Shown: positions 1 through 3,829 of the stretch, one piece after another | How positions within the stretch are numbered: position 1 is the first letter of the stretch | Layout: every line of letters starts with the position of its first letter | DNA from: Candidatus Aenigmatarchaeota archaeon | GTDB taxonomy: Archaea; Aenigmatarchaeota; Aenigmatarchaeia; QMZP01 | Assembly: GCA_030672315.1 (NCBI GenBank) | Contig: DAOVGQ010000016.1 | Coordinates: 1 to 5,421 of the forward strand | Direction: 5' to 3' | DNA: 5,421 nucleotides | Notes under the pieces: generated by a model | What the model was told of the DNA's origin: nothing | The model's database searches: none | What the model saw: the letters and a program-made list of their open reading frames with translations, nothing else | Translations under genes and position numbers: made by a program

Positions 1-920
1 TTGGTGAGTTCGGCCACGGAGACGCTGGAACCCTTCTGGGAAAGGGCCATGTAGGGGAGAATCTGGTCAGCCATCCACCTGTCCAGGCAGGCACCGGTTC
101 CAATCTGCTTCAGAAGCAGGTCAGCGCATTCCTTTCCAACCGTCTCAGCGGGTTTGCCCCTCTCGCCAAGGACAGTGGCCCCTAGAATGGTGTTATCGAA
201 ATGTGCATGTATGTGAAGGGATGAGCCTGGTGACTGGGTCTGGACATATTCCCTGAGTTCGCTCTCTGACTTCCTGCCTAGGATTCCTATTGCTTCATCC
301 GCCTGCCTCTCAGCCACCCTGGCCTGCCTGAGGTTCTCAGAGGCAACACTCAAGACATCATACCTTATGAACCTGGTCCTTTCTGTGAGGTTGGTTGATC
401 TTAGACTTCCCGTATGCACCCTGAGCAATACCCTTCCCCCTCCTTTGGGATAAAAACCGTACCTCAATATTGTTGTCTCAGTCTCAATACCCATCTTTCT
501 TAGGATACTGCAAAAAACTTCTTTGAAATATGTAATGCTGGGGCTCCAGGACACGTCTGTTCCTCCTGTAACCTCGAATTCCAGGGGCCTGTCTGTGTGG
601 ACAGCAGGAATCATCAGGCTCTGGAAGACCAGTCCTATTGAGCCCGCTGTCCCTATATCTATCCTGAGGTGGTCGCAGGCGAGCTCTCCTGGAGTGAACT
701 CTATCTGGGTGGAGCCCTCGGTGAGGCCAGAGACCCTGGCGTTACAGAGCCTGGCCACAGCCTCTATTCCCTTGAGGTGCTGGGGCTTCAGGCCGGGCTT
801 GGGCCGTTTGGACCGGATGTTGGTAATCCTGACGGGCTTTCCTGTAACTGCAGAGAGGCCCGTGGCTATCCTGACAATCTGGCCGCCTCCTTCGAGATAA
901 TCCCCTGGAATCTCTATCAT
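1..920 (-). CDS. rtcA: RNA 3'-terminal phosphate cyclase RtcA (partial, C-terminus beyond left edge)
   Basis: This gene encodes the ATP-dependent enzyme that turns an RNA 3'-phosphate into a 2',3'-cyclic phosphate through an enzyme-adenylate and RNA-adenylate; it acts in the cytoplasm. Translating the minus strand from the ATG at 920-918 gives 306 open residues to the left edge. Visible family signatures are EGGGQIVR (residues 10-17), the RSKRPKPGLKPQHL block (36-49), GTDVSWSPSITYF (120-132), the YPKGGG turn (157-162) before the insert domain, and DRWMADQILPYMAL (280-293). Family members are about 340 residues, so roughly the last 30-35 are missing. The histidine that carries AMP in E. coli RtcA (His309) should lie just past the edge, after SVAELT, so its presence cannot be confirmed. 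The ATG overlaps the stop of the upstream regulator gene (ATGA), and a weak Shine-Dalgarno (AAGGA, 932-928) sits 7 bases upstream, which supports this start and translational coupling. It probably has no promoter of its own. Confidence 0.93.
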   Translation of the reverse strand, partial: MIEIPGDYLEGGGQIVRIATGLSAVTGKPVRITNIRSKRPKPGLKPQHLKGIEAVARLCNARVSGLTEGSTQIEFTPGELACDHLRIDIGTAGSIGLVFQSLMIPAVHTDRPLEFEVTGGTDVSWSPSITYFKEVFCSILRKMGIETETTILRYGFYPKGGGRVLLRVHTGSLRSTNLTERTRFIRYDVLSVASENLRQARVAERQADEAIGILGRKSESELREYVQTQSPGSSLHIHAHFDNTILGATVLGERGKPAETVGKECADLLLKQIGTGACLDRWMADQILPYMALSQKGSSVSVAELT

Positions 921-1141
921 GTTAGTTTCCTTAACCTGACTATCTTTATCCATCTGTTATCGCTAACAAAGACTTCCTCGACCTCCCCTGCCAGGTGTTT
1001 CTCCAGGTAGATGGATACAGTGGACTTGTCCAGGTTGGCCTGCCTTGCTATCTCCCTTACCCAGAGGCCATCTGGGTTTTCCTTCAGGACCTTCTTTATT
1101 TTGTTTAGTTTTGATTTGTCTGGGCCTGCTTCTCTGCCCAT
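917..1141 (-). CDS. small winged helix-turn-helix DNA-binding protein, likely autoregulator of the rtcA operon
   Basis: This gene encodes a 74-residue basic protein that I cannot name beyond its fold. Residues 11-21 form a lysine-rich first helix. Residues 25-50 read as a helix-turn-helix: WVREIARQANL is the positioning helix and DKSTVSIYLEKHL the recognition helix. Residues 53-70 look like two beta strands of a wing (VEEVFVS, then RWIKIVRL). It lacks any ligand or dimerisation domain, so it presumably dimerises through the wing or terminal parts, fitting the palindromic sites found directly upstream. The ATG at 1141 has no Shine-Dalgarno, but a TATA box (1164-1171) lies about 26 bases upstream, so the transcript is probably leaderless, which supports this start. 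Its stop overlaps the rtcA start by 4 bases, so the two are one operon. Control of rtcA and of itself through the three palindromes is an inference; the HTH call itself is firm. Confidence 0.82.
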   Translation of the reverse strand: MGREAGPDKSKLNKIKKVLKENPDGLWVREIARQANLDKSTVSIYLEKHLAGEVEEVFVSDNRWIKIVRLRKLT

Positions 1142-1147
1142 GTTATA

Positions 1148-1168
1148 ATATTAGACATTGTCTAATAT
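1148..1168. promoter_or_regulatory. palindromic operator 1, overlapping the regulator's TATA box
   Basis: The core TTAGACATTGTCTAA (1151-1165) is a perfect inverted repeat around a single central T at 1158, and the symmetry continues to ten base pairs per arm (1148-1157 with 1159-1168). It lies between the minus-strand TATA box (1164-1171) and the regulator's ATG at 1141, partly covering the box. A protein bound here would block TBP/TFB or polymerase, so autorepression is the simplest reading. This is the longest palindrome of the three. Confidence 0.72.
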
Positions 1169-1171
1169 AAA
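1164..1171 (-). promoter_or_regulatory. TATA box for the regulator-rtcA operon
   Basis: The minus strand reads AGAAATG then TTTATATT, a good archaeal BRE/TATA arrangement. Its centre is about 26 bases from the regulator ATG at 1141, so transcription should begin at or within a base or two of the start codon, giving a leaderless mRNA. Operator 1 overlaps it. The call is based on sequence resemblance and spacing only. Confidence 0.6.
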
Positions 1172-1199
1172 CATTTCTATGGCCGGCTAATATGTAATA

Positions 1200-1214
1200 C
1201 TAGACATTGTCTAA
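1200..1214. promoter_or_regulatory. palindromic operator 2
   Basis: This is a second copy of the 15-bp site, CTAGACATTGTCTAA, differing from copies 1 and 3 only in the first base, which leaves six matched pairs per arm around the central T at 1207. It lies about 40 bases upstream of the regulator's TATA box and 49 bases from the centre of operator 1. The central base has the same orientation in all three copies. Confidence 0.68.
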
Positions 1215-1247
1215 TTTTCAAGATTTTGGAGCTACAACATACATTTA

Positions 1248-1262
1248 TTAGACATTGTCTAA
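1248..1262. promoter_or_regulatory. palindromic operator 3
   Basis: This is a third copy of TTAGACATTGTCTAA, with seven perfect pairs plus one flanking A/T pair (1247 with 1263) around the central T at 1255. It lies 48 bases from the centre of operator 2 and about 40 bases beyond the end of the beta-CASP nuclease gene, so it is probably not part of that gene's own promoter. Together the three sites form an evenly pitched array upstream of the regulator-rtcA operon. Confidence 0.68.
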
Positions 1263-1302: not shown

Positions 1303-2550
1303 CTAGACCTTTACCGTGTCCCCGTTCTTGGGGGCCTCGGCATCAATCCCCATGGCCTGAAGTTCCCTAGCAAAGACCTGGGTCCTGTCCCCGTGGACCA
1401 GGAAGACCTTCCTGGGCTTTATCCTCTTGAAGAACTCAATAAGATGGGTCCTGTCTGTGTGGGCCGAGAAGTCCATGAACTCTATCCTCATCTTGGGCTT
1501 CACGTCAAGACCCTCATTCACATACCTTCCAGTATCAAGAAGCCTTCTTCCAACCGTCCCTTCCACCATGAAGCCTGTCAGGGCCAGGGTGCAGTTCTCC
1601 CTGTCATGGAGATTCTTTATATAGTAGCTAACCGGCCCGCCATTGAGCATGCCTGCTGTGCAGATTATTATTCCCGGCTTCTCCAGAACCCTCTTTCTGT
1701 CCTTGAAGTTCAGAACCTTGTGTGCCCTGCTGAATGCCTTCCGGAGGAGCCTGCTGTCCCGCACAGAGCTGGGATGCTGAAGCATGGCGTTTGTGACCCC
1801 AATCCCCATCCCATCCACATGGATGGGAAACCCGAGGTCGTGCAGGACTATCAGAAGCTCCTGGGTTCTTCCCACAGCAAAGCTTGGGGCTATAATGTAG
1901 CCATTGTTATAGATGGTTTGCTGGCAGAGCTCCCTGAGCCTGTCCTCGAGCTTATCCCTGTCAGGGTGGTCCTTGTAGGAGTATGTGGACTCGCATATAA
2001 GGGCATCGAGCCCCATCACGTCTATCCTGGCTCCTCTAACAAGCTTTGTCTCAATGAACTTGATATCCCCTGTATAGAGGATTTTCTTGCCCTGGGACTC
2101 GAGGAGTATACTTGCTGCTCCAGGGATGTGGCCTGCATCAAGCAGGGTCACGGTTGATGACTTGAACCTCACTGGTTCGCCATAGCCAGGCGTCTTGCCC
2201 AGGCGCATGGTCTTCTGTATGTCTGCCGGCAGGAAATGGGGCTGCTTTCCCCTCTTCTTCTGGACCTTGATTGAATCCTTCAGGAGAATCTCCATGATGG
2301 AGGCAGCTGCCTTGGTGGTATAGACACTTCCCTCATAGCCTATCCTGTAGAGCTGGGGTGTCATGCCTGAGTGGTCTATGTGTGCATGGGAGATAAAGAC
2401 CCCGCTCAGGGGAAGCTTAGGCTTTATCGGCACATTGCCCTCCTGAACCTCTAGCCCATAGTCAAAGACAAAGCTGTCGCTGCCAGCAGTGAACTGCACT
2501 GCAGATTTGCCTACCTCTCTTGCACCGCCCAAGAATTTGATTTCAACCAT
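1303..2550 (-). CDS. beta-CASP metallo-beta-lactamase RNA nuclease, aCPSF2-like
   Basis: The gene encodes a 415-residue cytoplasmic ribonuclease of the metallo-beta-lactamase/beta-CASP family, which trims or cleaves RNA using two zinc ions. Visible motifs in order are the N-terminal FLGGAREVGKSA (6-17), the zinc motif HAHIDH (55-60), motif 3 His141 in DAGHIPG, motif 4 Asp162 in TGD, beta-CASP motif A Glu187 in ICESTY, the APSFAVGRTQELL block (221-233), motif B His364 in FSAHTD and motif C His386 in LVHGD. All catalytic positions are present. There are no N-terminal KH domains, so it is not the termination factor aCPSF1 (about 630 residues). Length and the GGAREVG start fit the aCPSF2 group better than RNase J, whose start is usually GGVGEIG-like; this subgroup call is less certain than the family. 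The ATG at 2550 is chosen because a Shine-Dalgarno (AGGAG, 2562-2558) lies 7 bases upstream and the fold begins at once; an in-frame ATG at 2643 would extend into RuBisCO. It lies upstream of the regulator-rtcA operon on the same strand, 161 bases away. Confidence 0.9.
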   Translation of the reverse strand: MVEIKFLGGAREVGKSAVQFTAGSDSFVFDYGLEVQEGNVPIKPKLPLSGVFISHAHIDHSGMTPQLYRIGYEGSVYTTKAAASIMEILLKDSIKVQKKRGKQPHFLPADIQKTMRLGKTPGYGEPVRFKSSTVTLLDAGHIPGAASILLESQGKKILYTGDIKFIETKLVRGARIDVMGLDALICESTYSYKDHPDRDKLEDRLRELCQQTIYNNGYIIAPSFAVGRTQELLIVLHDLGFPIHVDGMGIGVTNAMLQHPSSVRDSRLLRKAFSRAHKVLNFKDRKRVLEKPGIIICTAGMLNGGPVSYYIKNLHDRENCTLALTGFMVEGTVGRRLLDTGRYVNEGLDVKPKMRIEFMDFSAHTDRTHLIEFFKRIKPRKVFLVHGDRTQVFARELQAMGIDAEAPKNGDTVKV

Positions 2551-2602: not shown

Positions 2603-3829
2603 ATGACCGGATACGTGGACCTGGGATACAGGCCAAGGGACAACCTGATATGCGAGTTCTATGTGGAGCCCGCCCCCGGACACACCATGAAGCAGGCAGC
2701 AGAGGCAGTCGCAGAGGAGTCCTCAACAGGAACGTGGACCGAGGTCAAGGCCGGAAAGCCCATGGTGGAAAAAATCCATGCCAGGGTTTTTGAGCTCAAG
2801 CACAACAGAATCAGGGTGGCCTATCCCAGGGAACTATTCGAGGCCGGGAACATTCCCCAGCTCATGAGCAGCGTGGCCGGGAACATCTTCGGCATGAAGG
2901 CCATCAAAAGGATTCGCCTCGAGGACCTAGAGTTTCCCAGGAAGATGGTGAGATCCTATAAGGGGCCTGAACTCGGCCTCAGGGAGATAAGAAAACTCAC
3001 AAGGATAAGGGACAGGCCCATACTCGGGACAATCTACAAGCCAAAGCTGGGCCTCAAGCCCCTGGAGATGGCCGAGCTGGCCTACAGGGTCTATTCAGCT
3101 GGAATGGACTACAGCAAGGATGATGAAAACCTCGGCTCCATGGTCTTCAACCGCTTCCAGGACAGGGTCGTGAAGGTCCTAGATGTGGTGGACAGGATAA
3201 AATCCGAGCAGGGCAGGCGGGTTGTCTACGCAGCCAACATAACCGCCCCTGTTGACGACATGCTCAGGAGGGCCCAGTTCGTCAGGGACCACGGCGGGAA
3301 TTGCATCATGATTGACATACTGACTGCAGGATGGAGCGCCCTGGAATACATCACCAAGCAGAGACTTAAGCTCATTGTCCACGGCCACAGGGCCATGCAT
3401 GCCGCCCTGACCAGGAACCCCAGGCACGGCATATCCATGCTTGTAATTGCAAAGCTTGCCAGACTGGCCGGGGTGAGTGCACTCCACACAGGAACGGTTG
3501 TGGGAAAGATGGAGGGCAGCAAGGGCGATGTCCTTGAGATAGACAGCTTCCTCAGGGAGAGATGGCACGGCCTCAAGCCAGTCATGCCCATTGCCTCAGG
3601 GGGCCTCCATCCGGGTCTGGCGCCAAGGGTTATAGAAATCCTGGGCAGGAACCTTATCATGACATTCGGCGGGGGCCTCTGGGGCCATCCCGGCGGGCCC
3701 GAGGCTGGGGCCAGGGCCATAAGGCAGGCTGTGAGCGCCTCCATGAAGGGCATCCCTGTCAGGGACTATGCCCGGGAGCATCCCGAACTGGCCAAGGCCA
3801 TAGAGGAGTGGGGAACGGATTTCCATTGA
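2603..3829 (+). CDS. rbcL: form III ribulose-1,5-bisphosphate carboxylase (RuBisCO large chain), shortened after loop 6
   Basis: The 408-residue protein is an archaeal RuBisCO, adding CO2 to ribulose bisphosphate to give two 3-phosphoglycerates; in archaea this usually ends AMP/nucleoside breakdown rather than a Calvin cycle. Residues matching the spinach active site are visible: Glu39, Thr44 and Trp45 in ESSTGTW, Asn94 in AGNIFG, Lys146 and Lys148 in GTIYKPKLG, the carbamylated Lys172 with Asp174 and Glu175 in KDDEN, His262 and Arg263 in HGHRAMH, His295, loop-6 Lys302 in GTVVGKMEG, Ser332-Gly334 in ASGG, and Gly356-Gly357. Offsets to spinach numbering stay at 32 from His262 to Lys302, then jump to 47 by Ser332, showing a 15-residue shortening between them. 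From memory, the C-terminus and the HGHRAMHAALTRNP block resemble form III-b, while loop 6 resembles form III-a; the exact subgroup is open. The ATG at 2603 fits a leaderless transcript from the TATA box at 2573-2580; an upstream in-frame ATG at 2489 lies inside the beta-CASP gene and is unlikely. AMP phosphorylase and ribose-1,5-bisphosphate isomerase genes are not in the window. Confidence 0.95.
   Translation: MTGYVDLGYRPRDNLICEFYVEPAPGHTMKQAAEAVAEESSTGTWTEVKAGKPMVEKIHARVFELKHNRIRVAYPRELFEAGNIPQLMSSVAGNIFGMKAIKRIRLEDLEFPRKMVRSYKGPELGLREIRKLTRIRDRPILGTIYKPKLGLKPLEMAELAYRVYSAGMDYSKDDENLGSMVFNRFQDRVVKVLDVVDRIKSEQGRRVVYAANITAPVDDMLRRAQFVRDHGGNCIMIDILTAGWSALEYITKQRLKLIVHGHRAMHAALTRNPRHGISMLVIAKLARLAGVSALHTGTVVGKMEGSKGDVLEIDSFLRERWHGLKPVMPIASGGLHPGLAPRVIEILGRNLIMTFGGGLWGHPGGPEAGARAIRQAVSASMKGIPVRDYAREHPELAKAIEEWGTDFH

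Follow-up and report, generated by a model that had tools for sequence, protein, structure and literature searches.

Several archaeal regulators that act on their own promoters have been described in the genus Sulfolobus. Stf76, encoded by the plasmid-virus pSSVx of Sulfolobus islandicus (homologue: ORF80), is described as a 76-residue winged helix-turn-helix (wHTH) protein without the usual dimerisation elements, which binds two palindromic sites in its own promoter and pairs on the DNA; its operator is given as TTAA-N7-TTAA with a spacing of 60 bp, about six turns (PMC4027180). Ss-LrpB from Sulfolobus solfataricus is reported to bind three juxtaposed sites in its own control region as three dimers (PMC4046817) and to switch between positive and negative autoregulation (PMC2995911, PMC4046817), the sites of its family lying on the same face of the DNA at intervals of two or three helical turns (PMC2995911). 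For Lrs14 from S. solfataricus, the same paper describes negative autoregulation in which the promoter is covered so that TBP and TFB cannot bind (PMC2995911).

The locus analyzed here, a 5,421-nucleotide stretch of DNA from a Candidatus Aenigmatarchaeota archaeon (hereafter "the window"), carries a gene for a 74-residue wHTH protein followed by rtcA and preceded by three near-identical palindromes (Table 1), and it belongs with the known small autoregulated archaeal wHTH regulators. With Stf76, as that protein is described in PMC4027180, it shares the small wHTH and the palindromes in its own promoter; however, the published operator is TTAA-N7-TTAA at 60 bp in a plasmid-virus, while the window has AGAC-N3-GTCT in three sites in front of an rtcA operon, and no TTAA-N7-TTAA operator with 60-bp spacing was found in it, the palindrome being TTAGACATTGTCTAA at 48-49 bp. 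Ss-LrpB, in the published accounts, resembles it in autoregulation (proposed for the window) and in that its own control region has three sites which follow a 15-bp palindromic consensus, but differs in belonging to the Lrp family, in its RAM domain, in its consensus TTGCAAAATTTGCAA and in the in-phase spacing of its family. The likeness to Lrs14, drawn from its published description, is to the mechanism proposed here, i.e. promoter occlusion. On the evidence presented below, we consider it very probable that the palindromes are a dedicated operator of the 74-residue protein, which would repress its own synthesis by blocking TBP/TFB at the wHTH-rtcA promoter.

Table 1. Coordinates of the features discussed in the text (positions in the window unless a locus of another genome is named).
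Feature	Position	Strand	Sequence	Remarks
Operator site 1	1151-1165		TTAGACATTGTCTAA	overlaps downstream end of wHTH-rtcA TATA box; related site likewise placed in many relatives
Operator-like site 2	1200-1214		CTAGACATTGTCTAA	one mismatch (first base C); its centre lies 49 bp upstream of that of site 1
Operator-like site 3	1248-1262		TTAGACATTGTCTAA	48 bp upstream of site 2
TATA-like box	1164-1171	-	TTTATATT	wHTH-rtcA promoter; shares two bases with site 1
wHTH gene (74 residues, proposed autorepressor)	917-1141	-		ORF; recognition helix LDKSTVSIYL
rtcA (RNA 3'-terminal phosphate cyclase)	3-920	-		TIGR03399, 5.9e-101; cut by window edge
beta-CASP ribonuclease gene	1303-2550	-		its end lies upstream of wHTH gene
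Type III RuBisCO gene	2603-3829	+		
GH15 glycoside hydrolase gene and pyruvate:ferredoxin oxidoreductase gamma gene				beyond type III RuBisCO gene
EF-2 gene, interrupted stretch (G625)	L176:5000-5560	-		
EF-2 gene, interrupted stretch (G624)	L177:1764-1990	+		
EF-2 gene, interrupted stretch (G606)	L175:5773-6040	+		

The first-pass annotation had reported three near-identical palindromes at a pitch of 48-49 bp, found nowhere else in the window, the first of them on the TATA box and the other two upstream of it. All of this is confirmed: the centres lie at 1158, 1207 and 1255 (spacings of 49 and 48 bp), the presence of three copies of the 15-mer was reached by none of 200 dinucleotide-preserving shuffles, no fourth copy exists in the window with up to 3 mismatches allowed (expected number of matches 0.10), and the overlap at site 1 amounts to two bases. 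The operator core in the window is AGAC-N3-GTCT, with a 3-base centre. A unit of 21 bases is common to the copies, with identities of 95% and 86% to the reference copy, and a duplicated block or an assembly stutter looks unlikely, because the stretches between the copies were not reported as repeats in the repeat comparison. Near-identical units at regular spacing would also suit a mobile repeat, a CRISPR-like array or an assembly artefact; however, the units measure 15-21 bp and lack repeated spacers, and a related single site occupies the same promoter position in many genomes, so we regard an origin of this kind as vanishingly improbable. As to a viral origin, no homologue of the wHTH protein was found among the viral contigs searched, and the exact 15-mer is present in 61 viral stretches, once each, a number taken as the level of chance by judgement rather than from a computed expectation. 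Among the papers listed by searches of the open-access literature, none concerned the palindrome motif or a wHTH-rtcA operator.

The AlphaFold2 model of the 74-residue protein (mean pLDDT 84) is a wHTH with predicted helices at residues 9-21, 28-35 and 39-48 and strands at 54-59 and 65-70. Pfam reports HTH_IclR with an E-value of 0.001, below the cut-off of that family, and Foldseek ranks an RNA polymerase III subunit, through its wHTH, first in the PDB (E-value 5.4e-4), ahead of MarR-family structures; no PDB chain matched the family profile below an E-value of 0.046. The predicted structure thus shares its fold with the MarR family, but the flanking dimerisation helices described for that family (PMC4027180) are missing: the model shows none outside the wHTH, and Pfam gives MarR_2 an E-value of only 0.11. 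Similarly, no RAM domain of the Lrp/AsnC type was matched by Pfam up to an E-value of 1. The protein fits no named regulator family among those tested; as modelled, it appears to be a stand-alone wHTH of the ~75-residue class without dimerisation helices, as is Stf76.

The wHTH gene begins with the ATG at 1141 on the minus strand, and, given the usual archaeal spacing, the transcript is predicted to begin at or just before this codon, i.e. to be leaderless or nearly so. The rtcA ORF as listed begins with the ATG at 953; the start at 920 is likelier, because a second ATG at that position overlaps the wHTH stop codon (ATGA), and this overlap suggests translational coupling. The best organism-named relative of RtcA comes from Candidatus Aenigmarchaeota (73% identity), and the relative P0050 shows 85% identity. 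On the other side of the promoter, the beta-CASP ribonuclease is matched by the aCPSF1 model only from position 175 of that model onward, so the protein is without the N-terminal part; a further match, to the type VII Cas14 model, scores far under the cut-off of that model. A G+C hairpin, perhaps an end-of-gene element, lies on the minus strand at 1267-1302, between the beta-CASP stop codon and site 3; the RNA fold of 1248-1305 as a whole has a z-score of -3.9.

Hairpins raise the question of whether the palindromes act in RNA, in termination or in control of the mRNA. Sites 1 and 3, the two that were folded, form RNA hairpins of 6-9 bp, but such folding is common to any DNA palindrome; moreover, site 1 and its counterparts abut the TATA box upstream of the predicted start and would be mostly untranscribed, no terminator-like site was found in 1100-1340, and the separate G+C hairpin is already present between the beta-CASP stop codon and site 3. 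We consider a role in RNA extremely improbable.

The single-protein search gave 48 matches including the query, of which 47 were aligned (P0044 was left out); the nearest homologue, P0002 (86%), was compared at the protein level. An alignment search of the genome collection gave 14 loci. wHTH matches with E-values up to 1e-8 occur in 9 of 371 genomes in the phylum of G001, 8 of 87 in that of G005, 18 of 34 in that of G009 and 64 of 156 in that of G007. From 82 matches at E-values up to 1e-8 we retained 56 genes for comparison, having removed those that lacked the wHTH core pattern, had fewer than 55 residues or fewer than 60 upstream bases, or were more than 90% identical to one already kept (L069 is not among the 56). 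Class A comprises the 20 genes with E-values below 1e-19, the window included, class B 24 more distant genes, and class C the 12 most distant. The 23 genes with an operator core within 80 nt of the start are referred to as operator-bearing.

The first-pass annotation had proposed to check whether the motif tracks homologues of the 74-residue protein, and for many of them a related motif does. At a distance of at most 80 nt from the start, 14 of 20 class A genes and 9 of the 24 in class B have the core GACN3-4GTC, whereas only 6 of 436 other ORFs in the loci studied do (Fisher p 1.4e-16 for class A without the window versus the other ORFs, a value uncorrected for kinship). It is absent from these 80 nt in 6 class A, 15 class B and all 12 class C genes; 5 of the latter exhibit GTC-N3/4-GAC instead, compared to 4 of 436 other ORFs. 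A looser test, for any perfect inverted repeat with arms of at least 5 bases within 60 nt, gave the less striking ratio of 24/56 versus 69/426. As to position, the core starts at -26 to -18 in 17 of the 23 operator-bearing genes, and a TATA-like hexamer lies at most 13 nt on its 5' side in 20 of the 23 (against 14% of 940 random positions). The layout expected of TBP/TFB occlusion, with the operator at the TATA box, is thus seen in the window and in 20/23 operator-bearing genes, and palindromic sites at the own gene, as in Stf76, in 14 of 20 close homologues (window counted). The promoter of the closest relative compared as DNA (L065 of genome G531), TTTAATTAGACACGTGTCTAATAATAACTTATG, follows the same design with a 4-base centre and a single site.

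A scatter of the motif over the genome, which the first-pass annotation had named as a ground for giving up its proposal, was looked for in 21 relatives and not found. The pattern WWRGACANNTGTCYWW gave 20 sites in 14 of these genomes, 12 of them within ~150 nt before a wHTH gene, and the other 8 equal the 8 sites of a reversed-pattern control. Since the off-target sites are at the level of the control, the operator looks dedicated to its own promoter in these relatives. Two extra sites in G531 lie inside ORFs of 426 and 71 residues, not in promoters; 7 of the 21 genomes gave no match, and in these the pattern does not allow for the flanks of several native operators. Perfect copies of TTAGACATATGTCTAA were seen at or beyond the 3' ends of ORFs in L173:2793 and L174:4075, not in promoters; both belong to G606, whose wHTH operator is of the GGAC type.

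Adjacency is no proof of binding, and with 6 of the 20 close homologues lacking the core, one could suppose that another regulator binds the palindromes and that the wHTH gene is a bystander in the operon. This is very improbable in our opinion: the site stays with the wHTH gene while the genes downstream differ, and the operator goes with the recognition helix. The first residue of that helix is D or H where the outer base on the TATA side gives AGAC (16 genes) and S or A where it gives GGAC (7 genes), in 23 of 23 cases; this match was noticed before the residues were grouped (D with H, S with A), and the A/G labels were set by hand. On the best tree the operator base changes 4 times, but supported branches carry only 2 independent pairs, which is not enough for significance; because of these few pairs and the post hoc grouping, we take the match as suggestive and not as proven. 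Searches for more homologues, with matches in 1 of 241 genomes of the order of G017 and 1 of 6 of the order of G245, returned those already known and thus no additional independent helix changes. One of the 23 genes (L080) has a second half-site, GTCA, that does not fit, and L005, outside the 23, combines a D helix with a mixed GGAC/GTCT site further upstream and is half discordant. L048 (phylum of G005), with the helix ISKSTVSRYL and the site GGAC, suggests that the first helix residue, and not the later VS/VH difference, goes with the operator base. Some more distant homologues with other helices have other palindromes at the promoter: GAAC-N3-GTTC for PLSTVHYY (L087, L090, L091) and GTGTC-N4-GACAC for HMETARR (L009, L010, L011, L013). 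What emerges is a simple and testable rule relating residue 38 of the window protein to the outer operator base.

The triple array is seen in the window alone among the operator-bearing genes compared. None of the 22 operator-bearing relatives has a second GACN3-4GTC core within 200 nt upstream. A second upstream site was found in 2 of the 23 genes, with 0.27 expected, namely in the window and, as a weak site with three mismatches, in L003; an earlier test on 24 genes that accepted any inverted repeat, some of these not being the operator, found one only in the window. Tandem pairs of the N3 form, which the pattern covered, are absent from 156 genomes in the phylum of G007. Spacings of 49 and 48 bp correspond to 4.67 and 4.57 turns at 10.5 bp per turn, not to the whole-turn spacing of Lrp/AsnC sites, and thus put neighbouring sites on nearly opposite faces of the DNA, which argues against simple same-face stacking or looping. 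The first-pass annotation had read the layout as an autoregulated operator with cooperative or looping upstream sites: the autoregulatory part is favored by the tracking of the motif, its position at the TATA box and the match to the helix, whereas the single cores of the relatives and the off-phase pitch lend no support to the cooperative or looping part; the protein may still act cooperatively without phasing.

A dual switch after the fashion of Ss-LrpB can also be envisaged, in which the protein at low level would occupy sites 2 and 3 and activate, and at high level would fill site 1 and repress. In its favor, Ss-LrpB is described with just such a layout, its own control region holding several palindromic sites of 15 bp (PMC2995911, PMC4046817). 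On the other hand, site 2 is centred ~39 bp upstream of the TATA centre, while the activators described in PMC2995911 sit a few bases from the BRE; the palindromes are spaced off helical phase, the 74-residue protein has no RAM domain match, and 22/22 operator-bearing relatives have a single core. On balance we find such a switch unlikely.

The preferred reading, autorepression through a dedicated operator, appears well supported by the comparison of sequences, and the steps we infer (binding and its stoichiometry, repression, and what sites 2 and 3 do) would be as follows. Two copies of the protein would bind the two half-sites of AGAC-N3-GTCT. On site 1 such a pair would cover the end of the TATA box together with the DNA leading to the transcription start, which would prevent the loading of TBP/TFB and hold the wHTH-rtcA operon at a self-limiting level. 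It is probable that the 74-residue protein also binds sites 2 and 3; these could be extra places for it, added in the lineage of the window, that probably raise its local concentration or change the response curve.

The genes downstream of the wHTH gene vary; they were named by Pfam for one or a few per kind and otherwise by the look of the first residues. They encode GatE (L002, L004, L005, L006, L048), an ATP-grasp protein (L018 and its kin), a CYTH protein (L046), a FEN1-like XPG nuclease (L074) and EF-2 (L065). The gatE of L184 looked cut short, but its reading frame is continuous and encodes a shorter form from which one internal stretch is missing, so that it is not an interrupted gene. 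In eight loci (L001, L038, L039, L066-L069, L072) the gene directly downstream of the wHTH gene is a free-standing LAGLIDADG-like one; the eight products match one another by phmmer, some weakly, and Pfam names the domain in 4 of the 6 scanned. In 5 of the 8 the next gene is EF-2 or gatE (L066, L067, L069; L038, L072). An rtcA match was found in 4 of 128 loci, all of them loci of class C homologues and none beside a close homologue: in L058 rtcA (1074-2289) starts directly after the wHTH-like gene, in L010 (1060-2124) and L013 (6694-7716) it lies ~2.3 kb upstream of the wHTH gene, and in L056 (3-260) the end of an rtcA lies ~1.2 kb upstream. The link to rtcA may therefore be wider than the window.

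We tentatively put forward, as a possibility that we rate well below even, that the wHTH with its TATA-fused operator is a portable autorepressor module of LAGLIDADG endonuclease-like genes, passed between DPANN archaea and kept before gatE, EF-2 or rtcA, with helix and operator changing together; in the lineage of the window the operator would have been tripled, and its centre has one base fewer than that of most relatives. Such a module would keep free-standing LAGLIDADG endonuclease-like genes quiet and would later serve as a leader cistron before essential RNA and translation genes (gatE, EF-2, here rtcA). Transfer of the wHTH family fits the finding that 1 of 241 genomes of one order (phylum of G001) has a member.

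The EF-2 genes next to some of these loci are themselves unusual. In G606, G624 and G625, where wHTH and LAGLIDADG-like genes precede EF-2, the reading frame is broken at the same place of the P-loop (IVAHI/DHGKTT) by an insert of 32-33 bases, as counted from pattern matches of 52-53 bases; the exact-pattern search found the insert in at least 3 of 156 genomes. Two of the inserts were folded with their flanks and come close to a bulge-helix-bulge, with a helix between the exons, a short inner helix and a stem within the insert, although the loops of the minimum-energy folds are larger than in the canonical form; the third was read by eye. By our reading, AHIDHG is restored in frame in 3 of 3 cases if each supposed 3-base bulge is cut behind its second base. 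The inserts thus seem to be bulge-helix-bulge micro-introns in a protein-coding gene. For archaea, the cbf5 pre-mRNAs are called the first examples in PMC2738675; none of the papers listed by our literature searches reports EF-2 introns. By eye, L176 appears to contain one or two further inserts, after GHVD and FGGDV, and a second break is visible in the alignment. In G531 the EF-2 gene beside the wHTH gene (L170:4234-8013, minus strand) contains an intein that includes a LAGLIDADG domain and is followed at once by the remainder of the GTP-binding domain, possibly with a further break immediately in front of the intein.

To our knowledge, little is known about the control of transcription in DPANN archaea. 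The small regulator family described here comes with its operator, promoter geometry and residue-base rule, and can be tested in vitro from synthetic DNA; its operator motif can be used for the annotation of other genomes. The LAGLIDADG-like genes, together with EF-2 genes carrying apparent introns or an intein, raise a separate question about mobile elements in these archaea.
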